Shown here piece by piece: positions 28,908 through 33,229 of a DNA stretch of 64,000 nucleotides. A program made the translations under genes and the position numbers. Position 1 is the first letter of the stretch, and every line of letters starts with the position of its first letter. Origin of the DNA: Paraburkholderia sp. ZP32-5 (GTDB lineage Bacteria > Pseudomonadota > Gammaproteobacteria > Burkholderiales > Burkholderiaceae); the NCBI RefSeq assembly GCF_021390495.1, contig NZ_JAJEJP010000001.1, forward strand, positions 1,054,001 to 1,118,000, in the 5' to 3' direction. The notes below the pieces were generated by a model that saw only the letters and a program-made list of their open reading frames with translations, was not told where the DNA came from and did no database searches.

Positions 28908-28939
28908 ATGTAGACATTTTTATCTAGACAAATTATTCT
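28908..28939 (+). promoter_or_regulatory. blaI operon promoter with BlaI-type operators
   Basis: TAGACA (28911-28916), 17 bases, then TATTCT (28934-28939) form a sigma-70-like promoter. ATGT-AG-ACAT (28908-28917) and TATCTAGACA (28921-28930) are two related dyads 13 bp apart that overlap the -35 and spacer. BlaI/MecI repressors bind such tandem dyads, so autorepression is likely. Confidence 0.6.
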
Positions 28940-28972
28940 ACGTGTCATCGATTTTCCACTAGGGCTTCCGCG

Positions 28973-29356
28973 ATGACCAAGGCTGCCGCTCCGGCAAAAC
29001 CGACCGCGGGCGAACTCGAACTCCTGCGGGTTCTGTGGCCGCTCGGGCCGGCCACCGTCAAGCAGGTGCATCAAGCCATGCAGCAGGAACGCGCGGACGT
29101 GACCTACGCGACCGTATTGCGGCAGATGCAGCTCATGCATATGAAGGGACTGCTCAAGCGCGACGACAGCGAGCGCTCGCACGTCTATGCGCCTGCGCTG
29201 AGCCAGAACATGCTGCAAACCCGCCTGTTGAAGGAACTGATCCACAAGGCGTTTTCCGGTTCGGGAAAGGCACTGGTGATGGCTGCGTTGCGCAAACACG
29301 TTACTCAAGAGGAACGCGAGGAGATTCGCCAATTTCTGCACGGGGACGAGCAATGA
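28973..29356 (+). CDS. blaI: BlaI/MecI/CopY-family repressor
   Basis: This 127-residue winged-helix repressor begins with LTAGELELLRVLW-like sequence (here TAGELELLRVLWPLGPATVK) and has TYATVLRQMQLMHMKGLLKR, the recognition helix and wing of BlaI/MecI. The C-terminal helix mediates dimerisation. In the Bla systems the repressor is inactivated by its BlaR1/MecR1 partner when beta-lactam binds. Its stop overlaps the M56 protein start (ATGA), so the two are coupled. Confidence 0.9.
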   Translation: MTKAAAPAKPTAGELELLRVLWPLGPATVKQVHQAMQQERADVTYATVLRQMQLMHMKGLLKRDDSERSHVYAPALSQNMLQTRLLKELIHKAFSGSGKALVMAALRKHVTQEEREEIRQFLHGDEQ

Positions 29357-31125
29357 GTCCTTTTTCCTGGGCGCTCGTCCAGGCATTGGGATGGGCGCTC
29401 ATCCAGTTCGTGTGGAAGGGGGCGCTGATCGGCGTGGCAACGGCGCTGACGTTGCGGCTATTGCGCGGCGCGAGCCCACGGAGTCGCTATGCGCTGCTCT
29501 GCGTTTCGCTGCTGTCGTGTCTCGGTGTGGCGGCGTTCGACGTCTATCGGCAAATCGCCGCTGCATCGCGAGCATCGGGTTGGTTTGCCTTGAGCGATTT
29601 TCCCGTCGTGCCAACGATAGATGCACGCGTACCGTTTGCGATGGAGCACGTATTGCCCTGGCTGGTTGCCGCATGGTTGATCGGTGTTGCCGCCATGTCG
29701 TGCCGTCTGCTCGCCGGTTCGCTGTGGGTGGGGCGAATGGGCCGTGCGTTTCCCCATTCGCCGGATGCCCGCTGGCAGAGCCACGTATCAGCGCTGGCCG
29801 CGCGTTGCGCTTTACCGCGCCCGGTGACGCTGCGCGTGGCGGCGCATCTGTCGAGCCCGCTGACGATCGGCTGGTGGCGTCCGCTGGTGCTGGTTCCGGC
29901 CGCGTTGCTCACGTGCATGCCGCCCGATCTGCTCGAAGCGCTGCTGGCGCACGAAATCGCGCATATCAAGCGCGCCGACTATCTGGTCAATCTGCTGCAA
30001 AGCGCGATCGAGGCACTGCTTTTCTATCATCCGACGGTGTGGTGGCTGTCGCGGCAAATTCGTATCGAGCGGGAATGCGTTGCCGATCAGATCGCCGCCA
30101 CGCTGATTCAGAACCCGCGAAGTTTGGCGCTTGCGCTCGAGCAACTCGACGCTCATCAATCGACCAATGCCGAATATGCGTCGGTCGCGCAATCGGCAAA
30201 GGGCGGCCACCTGCTTGACCGCATCAAGCGTCTGTGCGAACCCGCTGCGCCTTCTCCGAAATGGACGGCATGCGCGCCAGGCATCGCATTCGGCGTCGTT
30301 GCGTTGTGTTTAGCGGCGCAGGCACTGTGGCCCGCGTCACAGTCCGCGGCAGACATCGCTCCGGTCGGGCTGCTCGAATCGAACCACGTCGTGGTGGTCG
30401 ACAACAACTCAGGCAAGGTTCTGTTCCAGAAACGCGCCGACGACATCGTGCCGATCGCGTCGTTGACGAAGCTGATGACGGCAATGGTCGTGCTCGATGC
30501 GCGGCCCGACATGAACCGAACGATTCGTATCGATGCCAGCGACGTCGAGGCATTGCGGCCCAGTCCCACGGGATTGCCGGCTGGTTCGAGCCTGCCGCTT
30601 TACGCGGTGCTGCAACTTGCGCTGATGTCGTCGAACAATAGCGCCGCGTATGCGCTGGCGCATCACTATCCCGGCGGCATCCTGGCGTTCCAGGCGGCGA
30701 TGCGCGCCAAGATTGCGGCACTCGGGTTGAAGCACACGACGATCGACGAACCAACTGGCCTGTCGCCGCTCAACACGTCGACAGCAAGCGACGTGTCCGT
30801 GATGGTGAACGCGGCGGCCCGCTATCCGGCGATTGCGCGTGCAACGACCGACGCCCACAGCATCATCCCGATCGACGGCAAGCTGGTCGACTATCAGAAC
30901 ACGAATCCACTGGTCGGGCAGAAGGGCTGGGATATCGCGTTGTCGAAAACCGGCTTCACGGAAGTGGCCGGGCGTTGCCTGATCATGCGGCTGCGCTCGG
31001 TTCGGGACAGCGTCACGATGGTGTTTCTGGACGCCGGGCCAGCCGCGGTCCCCACGCGCGACGCGATCAATATCCGCCGCCTGCTGCTTGCCCGCGAGCA
31101 GGCGTGGCACGCGTCACACGCTTAA
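29353..31125 (+). CDS. BlaR1-like M56 metallopeptidase fused to an S11 penicillin-binding domain
   Basis: The protein has 590 residues. The N-terminal half (about 1-325) is a membrane M56 peptidase with several hydrophobic segments and zinc site His200-Glu-Ile-Ala-His204, plus Glu240 in ERECVAD. The C-terminal half (about 343-585) is a D-Ala-D-Ala carboxypeptidase-like (S11/PBP7) domain with Ser370-x-x-Lys373 (SLTK), SNN at 427-429 and KTG at 532-534. BlaR1 instead carries a class D-like sensor. The domain may sense beta-lactams by acylation and trigger cleavage of BlaI (inference). Confidence 0.85.
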   Translation: MSPFSWALVQALGWALIQFVWKGALIGVATALTLRLLRGASPRSRYALLCVSLLSCLGVAAFDVYRQIAAASRASGWFALSDFPVVPTIDARVPFAMEHVLPWLVAAWLIGVAAMSCRLLAGSLWVGRMGRAFPHSPDARWQSHVSALAARCALPRPVTLRVAAHLSSPLTIGWWRPLVLVPAALLTCMPPDLLEALLAHEIAHIKRADYLVNLLQSAIEALLFYHPTVWWLSRQIRIERECVADQIAATLIQNPRSLALALEQLDAHQSTNAEYASVAQSAKGGHLLDRIKRLCEPAAPSPKWTACAPGIAFGVVALCLAAQALWPASQSAADIAPVGLLESNHVVVVDNNSGKVLFQKRADDIVPIASLTKLMTAMVVLDARPDMNRTIRIDASDVEALRPSPTGLPAGSSLPLYAVLQLALMSSNNSAAYALAHHYPGGILAFQAAMRAKIAALGLKHTTIDEPTGLSPLNTSTASDVSVMVNAAARYPAIARATTDAHSIIPIDGKLVDYQNTNPLVGQKGWDIALSKTGFTEVAGRCLIMRLRSVRDSVTMVFLDAGPAAVPTRDAINIRRLLLAREQAWHASHA

Positions 31126-31143
31126 CACGCTTAACACGCGTGA
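31117..31143 (+). repeat. 9-bp tandem repeat over the M56 gene stop
   Basis: CACGCTTAA occurs twice in tandem, then CACGCGTGA. The first copy contains the stop codon. Likely slippage-derived. Confidence 0.7.
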
Positions 31144-31202
31144 CATTCGCCGCGCACACTGCACGCGCCGCTTCCCCTCACTCTGACTACCTGGACTCAA
31201 CT

Positions 31203-32087
31203 GTGACTCAGTCGATCACTCATTCGACCACGCGCCGAAAGCTGTTGATTGGATTACCGCTGCTCGCCGGCATCGGCATGGTTCCCGCGTTGCATGCTGC
31301 CGAATCGCCGCTCGCGGAGATCGAGCGGCGACATGGCGGTCGCCTCGGCGTGTTCGCCATCGATACCGGTTCGGGACGCACGCTGAGCCATCGCGCGGAC
31401 GAACGCTTCCTGATGTGCAGCACGTTCAAGGGGATCCTCGCGGCGCAGATACTGGCGCGCATCGATAGCGGCGCGGAGCGGCCGGAGCGCCTTGTGAATT
31501 ACACGGAGAAGGACCTTATTTTCACATCGCCGGTAACGAAGGCCAATGTCGCGCACGGCGCGATGTCGATCGATGCACTGTGCCGGGCGGTTCTGGTGGA
31601 AAGCGACAACACCGCCGCGATCCTGCTGATGCGCAGCGTCGGCGGCCCCTCGGCGCTCACCCGTTTCGTTCGTGGACTCGGCGATAGGGTCACGCGTTCG
31701 GACCGCTACGAGCCCGACTCGAATAGCTATCACGGCGAACTCGACACGACGACGCCAAAGGCGATGGCCATCACGGCGCAGCGCCTATTGCTCGGCGATG
31801 TGCTGAGTGCCGGTTCACGCGCGCAACTGGAGCGCGGCATGACCGACTGCAAGCCGGGTCTCAACCGGCTACGTGCCGCGTTGCCCGCGGGCTGGCAGGC
31901 CGCCGACCGGCCCGGAACCAGCGTCGAAAGCGAGACCAACGACTACGCGCTCGTCCGTCCGCCGGGCCGCGCGCCATTGCTCGTCGCCGCCTACTACGAT
32001 GCACCGGGAGTCGCGATGGACGCGCGCGAGGCGGTGTTGCGCGAAGCCGGCAAAGCATTCGTGCAATGGGCCACGAGCGCCGCATGA
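31203..32087 (+). CDS. Class A beta-lactamase with atypical RPG motif
   Basis: The protein has 294 residues. A twin-arginine-like signal (TTRRKLLIG) ends near HAAES. The active site has STFK (Ser73/Lys76; Ambler 70/73), SDN at 134-136 (Ambler 130) and Glu170 with Asn174 (Ambler 166/170). The KTG triad at Ambler 234-236 is RPG here. Cys72 precedes the catalytic Ser as in KPC-type enzymes, but Ambler 238 is Ser, so no 69-238 disulfide forms. The start is GTG 31203 without a strong Shine-Dalgarno. It lies in the BlaI/M56 operon. Confidence 0.9.
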   Translation: MTQSITHSTTRRKLLIGLPLLAGIGMVPALHAAESPLAEIERRHGGRLGVFAIDTGSGRTLSHRADERFLMCSTFKGILAAQILARIDSGAERPERLVNYTEKDLIFTSPVTKANVAHGAMSIDALCRAVLVESDNTAAILLMRSVGGPSALTRFVRGLGDRVTRSDRYEPDSNSYHGELDTTTPKAMAITAQRLLLGDVLSAGSRAQLERGMTDCKPGLNRLRAALPAGWQAADRPGTSVESETNDYALVRPPGRAPLLVAAYYDAPGVAMDAREAVLREAGKAFVQWATSAA

Positions 32088-33229
32088 CCGACACCGGCAC
32101 GCGAAACCGGAACATCGATCTGCTGCGGGGCGTGTCGATTCTGCTCGTGCTGTTGCATCACTTCAACATTGCGTATCGGCTCGACGACACCTTTCTTTCG
32201 CGTGTATTCGGATGGCCGACGATTCGGACGGTGGTGCGAAACGGTAACTACGGCGTCACGATGTTCTTCGTGATTTCGGGCTACCTGATTACGGCCAACG
32301 CTCTTCGTCGTTGGTCCGAATTCCGTCATGTCGATCTCGGGGCGTTTTACGGCTTGCGTACCGCGCGTATCGTGCCGTGCCTGTTGCTATTGTTGGCCGT
32401 CGTGAATGCGCTAGCTGTAGCCGGCATCCCGATCTTTCAGAATCACTCGCCGGGCGGCGCGCCGGTTTCTTTCTGGCTCGTGAATCTGGCGTCGTTGACG
32501 TTCTGGATGAACGTGTTGATCGGCGCGCACGGATGGACGAACTATGCGCTCGGCGTGTTGTGGTCGCTTTCCGTCGAGGAGGTGTTTTACCTGTCGTTCC
32601 CGCTGCTTTGCGTGGCGCTTCGCGAGGACACACGGCTCGTTGCATTCTGGCTCGTGTGCGTGGTCGTCGGTCCGGCTTACCGGTTCTTTCATCAAGGCGA
32701 CGAAGGCGGCTATCTGTACGCGTATTTCGCCTGTTTCGATGCAATCGCCATCGGTTGCTGCACGGCGCTGCTCGCGAGGCATGTCGTATGGCGCGGCCGC
32801 GCGCGGAGCGTGTCGATGTGGCTGAGCGCAGCAGGCATGACGTTCGTTTATCTGTGCTGGCCCATTCGGGAAAGCAATGTGTTCGGCGTCACCGCGATGG
32901 CTTTCGGCACGGCGGTACTGCTGCTGGCGGTACACGATCGCCAGCACCGCTCGTCGATGCGGTGCTCGGCGCTCGAAGGGCTTGGCAGACTGAGTTACGA
33001 ACTCTATCTGTTTCACCTGATCGTTCTTGGTGTGTTGCGAACGATCTTTCCGCCTACCGACGTGGCAGGATCGGAAAAGCTCCTGCTGCTGCTGGCTTTT
33101 CTGCTCGTTTCGGTCTGTCTGAGCCTCGCGATCGCACGGCTCTACGCGAACCCTTCGAATCGGATCGTCCGTCAGTGGCTGGTGGCGCGAAGGTCTCAAT
33201 CGATCCGCCAGCGCGTACCATATAGCTGA
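32084..33229 (+). CDS. Acyltransferase-3 (OafA/YrhL-like) family protein
   Basis: This 381-residue integral membrane protein has about ten hydrophobic segments. RNIDLLRGVSILLVLLHHF is the family's N-terminal motif with the catalytic His, and FFVISGYLIT follows. LWSLSVEEVFYLSFPLL is the central motif. The family acetylates or succinylates glycans, lipids or peptidoglycan at the membrane. The ATG overlaps the beta-lactamase stop by four bases, so it is probably co-expressed under beta-lactam stress. Confidence 0.87.
   Translation: MTDTGTRNRNIDLLRGVSILLVLLHHFNIAYRLDDTFLSRVFGWPTIRTVVRNGNYGVTMFFVISGYLITANALRRWSEFRHVDLGAFYGLRTARIVPCLLLLLAVVNALAVAGIPIFQNHSPGGAPVSFWLVNLASLTFWMNVLIGAHGWTNYALGVLWSLSVEEVFYLSFPLLCVALREDTRLVAFWLVCVVVGPAYRFFHQGDEGGYLYAYFACFDAIAIGCCTALLARHVVWRGRARSVSMWLSAAGMTFVYLCWPIRESNVFGVTAMAFGTAVLLLAVHDRQHRSSMRCSALEGLGRLSYELYLFHLIVLGVLRTIFPPTDVAGSEKLLLLLAFLLVSVCLSLAIARLYANPSNRIVRQWLVARRSQSIRQRVPYS

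Follow-up and report, generated by a model that had tools for sequence, protein, structure and literature searches.

BlaR1-type induction is the textbook route in Gram-positive bacteria, and Gram-negative bacteria are known mainly for AmpG/AmpR. The receptors BlaR1 and MecR1 of S. aureus and B. licheniformis, paired with the repressors BlaI and MecI, have an N-terminal membrane M56 gluzincin with HExxH and E..D motifs and a C-terminal serine-active sensor of the class D type, and their genes form a divergon with a BlaI neighbour and a beta-lactamase output. According to the available part of PMC9834060, the outer loop of BlaR1 (EL1) plugs the sensor active site and is displaced by the drug. 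Here we describe a locus in a 64,000-nucleotide stretch of Paraburkholderia sp. ZP32-5 (contig NZ_JAJEJP010000001.1, positions 1,054,001 to 1,118,000 of the forward strand; this whole stretch is called the window below) that shares the peptidase, the serine-active C-terminus, the BlaI neighbour and the beta-lactamase output. In contrast to BlaR1/MecR1, its sensor is of the S11 type of penicillin-binding protein 7 (PBP7), its genes form a co-directional operon, its outer loop is variable, and its relatives have other outputs. We read it as probably a BlaI/M56 repressor-receptor pair with a PBP7-type penicillin-binding sensor, in which a beta-lactam would induce the operon.

Two other described systems are comparable. 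Proteins combining M56 with a class D domain have been reported from the Oxalobacteraceae (PMC9045261); like our locus they are BlaR1-type systems in Betaproteobacteria, but they have a class D active site, and the available text of that paper does not mention S11 fusions. R. pickettii has inducible class D enzymes, OXA-22 and OXA-60, also in the Burkholderiaceae, but there the DNA-binding protein RP3 is described as a positive regulator in the part available of PMC3660660.

The operon consists of four genes on the forward strand over window positions 28973-33229, in the order blaI, M56-S11 fusion, class A beta-lactamase and acyltransferase, with ATGA couplings at 29353 (blaI stop and fusion start) and 32084 (beta-lactamase stop and acyltransferase start). 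An earlier note made from the sequence had described this gene order and two ATGA couplings. That note also placed the M56 peptidase and the S11 domain in one protein, and domain searches agree: the 590-codon frame has no internal stop, and both Pfam matches fall in the same protein. It had allowed that the S11 part might be a separate gene, joined to the M56 part through a frameshift in this assembly. This is not the case, since the frame is single and independent assemblies have the same fusion. Close relatives with the fusion have near-identical lengths in the homology search, and P. caribensis, P. fungorum, P. tropica, P. heleia, Herbaspirillum, Cupriavidus and others each have it in a record of their own. 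We found nothing in favour of an assembly or frameshift artefact and give that explanation practically no credence.

By sequence search, the M56 part matches S. aureus BlaR1 over residues 107-252, and a profile match to BlaR1 pairs profile positions 93-326 with fusion residues 95-327; the profile match to PBP7-type endopeptidases covers 345-593. Sequence searches of the fusion protein left the BlaR1 sensor unaligned, and its Pfam matches lacked PF00905 and had PF00768 Peptidase_S11 instead, so the sensor is not of the class D type, as the earlier note had stated. That note went further and called the domain a D-Ala-D-Ala carboxypeptidase type; the S11 assignment stands, but by sequence and predicted fold the domain resembles the PBP7/PbpG DD-endopeptidases. 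Its best NCBIfam match is PRK11669 (PbpG, D-alanyl-D-alanine endopeptidase), at 220.5 bits, below the 294-bit cut-off, while the DacA and DacD profiles score only about 39. The closest solved structures by sequence are the murein DD-endopeptidases 6azi and 6muq, and with Foldseek the S11 fold, which is modelled with confidence, reaches a template modelling score (TM-score) of 0.90 to 6azi, normalised by target; identity to the PBP7/8 structures is 40-43% in the structural alignment. A DacA-type carboxypeptidase was rejected in favour of the PBP7 type on the NCBIfam scores together with the structure and profile matches. In a tree, 21 free PbpG-type proteins from the genus group apart from the S11 domains of the fusions, with which eight free relatives fall. 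The domain shares with PBP7/8 the S11 fold and the SxxK, SxN and KTG motifs, but here it is tethered to a zinc peptidase. S11 penicillin-binding proteins have been solved with penicillin, ampicillin and imipenem (PDB titles 5zqb, 3ita, 3mzf). The earlier note suggested a different sensing principle, but a different enzyme family might simply be performing the same acylation of a serine.

The AlphaFold model of the fusion was built from 65 alignment rows and has a mean predicted local distance difference test score (pLDDT) of 87 and a predicted template modelling score of 0.55, which makes the placement of the domains relative to each other unreliable. Model helices at residues 3-36, 42-74, 92-132 and 308-324, which we read as the four membrane helices, are followed by the S11 domain. 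Low-confidence loops lie at 77-94, in the place of the BlaR1 outer loop, at 275-282, in the place of its autocleavage loop, and at 327-335, the linker. Foldseek also returned BlaR1 (8exq) at E 1.1e-12, with a root mean square deviation of 21 over 618 columns, so the domains are placed differently.

The homology search scored 7995 candidates, of which 1722 proteins reached E <=0.001; all of the best 120 have both M56 and S11 in precomputed Pfam annotation. Over 136 rows (these 120 plus 16 from the loci described below, partly the same proteins), HExxH is present in 136/136, SxxK in 136/136, SxN in 134/136 and KTG in 132/136; the four rows without KTG are two gaps, one NTG and one KTA. These counts imply that the S11 active site is under selection, which argues against the S11 domain being a passive leftover of a fusion, a case in which M56 would detect another signal by way of its membrane helices or the outer loop. 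We regard that as improbable, even though M56 relatives with other C-termini (TonB-like or coiled, by eye) share the operator, so that M56 works with other C-terminal parts, and the outer loop is unlike that of BlaR1.

Full-length fusions occur in many Burkholderiales, sparsely: in 8/144 genomes of the genus, plus one decayed copy, in 12/398 genomes of the window's family (E <=1e-80), and in 9/145 genomes of family f8 (Janthinobacterium query, E <=1e-120). Family f49 has matches in 17/299 genomes (E <=1e-110), one of them S11 only and one cut by a contig end. Three of the 16 genomes of the genus of genome G247 carry the fusion, and R. pickettii was not recognised among those 16; identity of RP3 with the system described here is unsupported, RP3 being a positive regulator in the available text.

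A survey of such fusions, proposed in the earlier note, gave 44 distinct loci: a first round contributed 28, and a second, within f49, another 16 (L numbers are loci, G numbers genomes, and f8 and f49 family labels of this analysis). Duplicate assemblies (L003 of L100, L117 of L007, and L025, L026, L028 and L029 of L001, L002, L004 and L005) and the remnants L083 and L157, both without M56, were left out, and genome G021, taken to be P. caribensis, was represented by L080. The S11 motifs are intact in all 44 fusions, and in 45/45 rows when L157 is added, with HExxH in all 43 rows that cover that part. blaI adjoins the fusion in 42/44; of the other two, the contig of L156 begins inside the fusion, and the 334 available upstream bases of L001 show no blaI. 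We regard it as a conserved and repeatedly reused sensor-repressor pair, which from its anatomy would be expected to work as BlaR1/BlaI does, though it is not BlaR1 by the sensor test. As for the remnants, L083 (genome G099) is a decayed operon in which blaI and M56 were not found and an S11 stub corresponding to fusion residues 393-584 remains with the beta-lactamase and the acyltransferase, and L157 (genome G1470) has an S11 gene and after it the esterase type of L148 and L149, with neither M56 nor blaI in the stretch retrieved.

A beta-lactamase is the next gene in 27/44 fusions, and it belongs to one of three unrelated classes: class A in 15 (10 in the window's family, 2 in Herbaspirillum, 3 in f49), class D in 5 and subclass B3 in 7. 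Class A calls were profile-scored for the window, L082, L006, L117 and L158, made by Pfam for L160 and by homology for the others; the class D enzymes are OXA-1043/364-like (four profile-scored, L086 by homology), and the B3 enzymes are THIN-like (five profile-scored, all by homology). The acyltransferase of L005, the oxidases of L144 and L145 and the beta-lactamase of L160 were detected by tblastn or Pfam. By group, a beta-lactamase follows the fusion in 15/15 loci of the window's family, 7/7 of the Janthinobacterium-type genus, 2/2 of Herbaspirillum, 3/16 of f49 and 0/4 of the remaining loci. A search for relatives of classes A, D and B3, which did not extend to class C, found none in the stretches retrieved for the 17 distinct unfused M56 loci. 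When the 44 fusions and L157 are placed on a quick tree (45 rows), the output type changes at least 10 times, and the class A outputs fall in two distant clades, their enzymes about 45% identical; the regulator pair kept its sensor and swapped its output gene several times. We consider this repeated recruitment of unrelated beta-lactamases the strongest evidence that beta-lactams are involved with this receptor family. The rule that all fusions regulate beta-lactamases, suggested by the first 28 loci (24/28), failed in the second sample. Accordingly, where the earlier note spoke of a beta-lactam-responsive operon, the gene association in the window's own family (15/15 loci) supports that description well, but beta-lactamase output is not a rule for all the fusions.

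A TAGA-based candidate operator, TAGACA-N8-TAGA-N5-TATTCT, lies upstream of blaI in 25/25 first-round fusion loci scored, with 14-16 of 16 positions matched. As controls, 5000 dinucleotide shuffles peaked at 13 of 16, and 10000 random pieces were taken from the same loci; 87 of these (with TCTAGA and a score of 15 or 16) were set aside, and 6 of the remaining 9913 reached 14, possibly including operator parts. L113 and L114 also carry the operator, L001 was outside the scored set, and in f49 a site scoring at least 14 is found in 14/17 loci. The 30-base operator pattern has a single match at <=3 mismatches in the 9.09-Mb genome of the window. TAGACA-N17-TATTCT can be read as a -35/-10 pair of the sigma-70-like kind; the scanned stretch has no other promoter-like site, although about one would be expected by chance. 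This operator differs from the staphylococcal one. In Herbaspirillum the acyltransferase gene is divergent from blaI with the operator in between, an arrangement that favours a common control including the acyltransferase. In five Janthinobacterium-type loci (L110, L111, L112, L115, L116) only six bases separate the end of the -10 from the ATG of blaI, and the transcript of this gene may therefore be leaderless there.

The same operator is found upstream of unfused BlaI-M56 or M56 genes in L011-L015, L092, L095, L096 and L119-L122; it was not seen in L016, L018 and L019. Control of free S11 genes by this operator was considered and rejected: they had no operator site scoring at least 14 in L009, L010, L093 and L094, and in L092 such a site stands only before M56. 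By eye, the unfused M56 proteins of L092, L095, L096 and L123, noted as under the same operator, have a TonB-like C-terminus. The nearest free S11 relative was found 13-16 kb away in genomes G536, G771 and G825.

Given this layout, BlaI dimers would bind the TAGA repeats overlapping the -35 and -10 and hold the operon low. The motifs and the predicted fold suggest that a periplasmic beta-lactam would acylate Ser370 of the S11 domain, as in other S11 penicillin-binding proteins. By analogy with the homologous BlaR1, the membrane part would relay the change to the zinc peptidase in the cytosol, which would then remove BlaI and allow the operon to be transcribed. The beta-lactamase would clear the drug, and the acyltransferase would alter an envelope component and so may aid survival under the beta-lactam. 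In the window's family and Herbaspirillum, all 17 operons with a class A or class D enzyme include the acyltransferase; it is present in 0/7 B3 operons and in 0/17 f49 loci.

The beta-lactamase start is best set at the GTG at 31203, just before a twin-arginine leader aligned with the starts of most relatives compared; by eye this Tat-like leader reads TTRRKLLIG. At 31908-31916 the KTG motif is replaced by RPG, as in all 14 enzymes compared from operons of this type, which comprise 13 distinct sequences and include one from the decayed L083, and in the close relative PDB 5hw3. KTG is present in all three class A enzymes of f49.

Several points weigh against a beta-lactam receptor. The fusion scores 56.1 bits with the NCBIfam profile blaR1_generic, far below its 400-bit cut-off. 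The outer loop has a pLDDT <50 and varies in length and sequence among relatives, so that the plug-and-displace detail of BlaR1 is not transferable to the fusion. The window's beta-lactamase is a predicted class A enzyme whose activity is only putative, given RPG in place of KTG. The operator, standing also before unfused M56 genes, is a mark of this BlaI lineage and was rejected as a mark of the fusion. The loci were picked for their resemblance to one of three fusions (that of the window, a Janthinobacterium relative and an f49 relative), a non-random choice in which near relatives are over-represented. Finally, 17/44 fusions have no beta-lactamase next (13/16 in f49), and these exceptions are the strongest evidence for a possible wider role.

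In the 17 exceptions the next gene is D-amino-acid-oxidase-like in six, a TonB-dependent receptor in five (L008, L090, L118, L154, L155), siderophore-esterase-like in three (L148, L149, L156), and other or none in three (a histidine-kinase-type gene in L091, purB in L150, a convergent transporter in L151). The TonB and esterase outputs are hinting at an iron or nutrient link. The oxidase-like gene (L147:4814-5938, minus strand; also L144, L145, L146, L152, L153) overlaps the fusion by one base in L147 and L152. Its product is circularly permuted, the part matching the oxidase C-terminus coming first and the flavin adenine dinucleotide-binding N-terminal part second, and by eye the four N-termini inspected all start with a twin-arginine-like leader.

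These outputs bring in a serious though less probable alternative, in which the S11 domain would act as a functional DD-endopeptidase or as a receptor for muropeptides. It would report cross-linked muropeptides or wall turnover, raised by beta-lactams and other stresses alike, and beta-lactamases would be one of several recruited outputs. SxxK, SxN and KTG are retained in groups with and without a beta-lactamase, the oxidase class has D-amino acids, which peptidoglycan also contains, as substrates, and other relatives have the TonB receptors or esterases next. Cephalosporin C is also a substrate of D-amino-acid oxidases, so the oxidase output is indecisive. B. licheniformis BlaI can be released by a peptidoglycan dipeptide, according to the available text of PMC3305447, which would suit this alternative, but a beta-lactam signal accounts more directly for three unrelated beta-lactamase classes in the same slot and for the 15/15 count of the window's family. 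We also entertain, as a possible but unlikely case, a general periplasmic cell-wall sensor built from BlaI/M56-S11 around a live DD-endopeptidase that reads cross-linked muropeptides or D-Ala-D-Ala chemistry, with beta-lactams as mimics and with interchangeable outputs (three unrelated beta-lactamases, TonB receptors, siderophore-type esterases and a permuted D-amino-acid oxidase that appears to be exported by Tat). If true, the pair would count as a separate system for sensing the cell wall and not as a BlaR1 variant. Returning to the beta-lactam receptor, we infer that a beta-lactam rather than a muropeptide is the signal, and that the four-gene operon is probably antibiotic-responsive.

The features of the operon are listed in Table 1. 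The window's BlaI scores below the species-specific BlaI/MecI cut-offs of NCBIfam, and the 9.09-Mb genome has one M56 protein above the Pfam cut-off. The P. caribensis record is annotated in the same order (BlaI, M56 family metallopeptidase, class A beta-lactamase, acyltransferase); its operon sits on a 442-kb plasmid, with flanking genes that differ from those of the window.

Table 1. Operon features, in window coordinates, with the evidence for each.
Feature	Position	Strand	Evidence
Promoter with embedded BlaI-type operator, predicted	28911..28939	+	TAGACA-N17-TATTCT; TAGA units 14 bp apart; within imperfect palindrome 28910-28941
blaI, Penicillinase_R repressor, 127 aa	28973..29356	+	PF03965 79.1 bits, cut-off 22.6
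M56-S11 fusion receptor, 590 aa	29353..31125	+	single open frame; Pfam; homologues; model
M56 zinc peptidase match, residues 95-254	29635..30114	+	Peptidase_M56 87 bits
HEIAH, residue 200	29950-29964	+	zinc motif of M56 part
RECVAD, residue 240 (E..D)	30073-30087	+	zinc motif of M56 part
S11 (PBP7-like) domain, residues 341-561	30373..31035	+	PF00768 Peptidase_S11 160 bits
SLTK, residue 370	30460-30471	+	S11 motif
SNN, residue 427	30631-30639	+	S11 motif
KTG, residue 532	30946-30954	+	S11 motif
Class A beta-lactamase, GTG start, 294 aa	31203..32087	+	NF033103 262.5 bits, cut-off 200; Beta-lactamase2 107 bits
Acyl_transf_3 membrane acyltransferase, 381 aa from ATGA start	32084..33229	+	PF01757 111.2 bits

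We found no description of an M56-S11 fusion in open-licence PMC full text, a search that did not extend to subscription journals and supplements, and within the same text no one paper was found to name both BlaR1 and D-alanyl-D-alanine endopeptidase. PMC5184135 and PMC6843130 say nothing about the regulator in the text available. The architecture is nevertheless catalogued, since database entries already name the protein 'M56 family metallopeptidase' or 'D-alanyl-D-alanine endopeptidase', but our searches turned up no study devoted to it. In Burkholderiales, a PBP-type domain thus appears to serve as the receptor of a BlaI/M56 system that stands ahead of class A, class D and B3 enzymes, the last including THIN-like enzymes of Janthinobacterium-type genomes. 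The system bears on whether another penicillin-reactive serine enzyme can be a receptor, and on whether the drug or wall fragments are the signal. It might also explain inducible resistance where AmpR is not linked to the enzyme.

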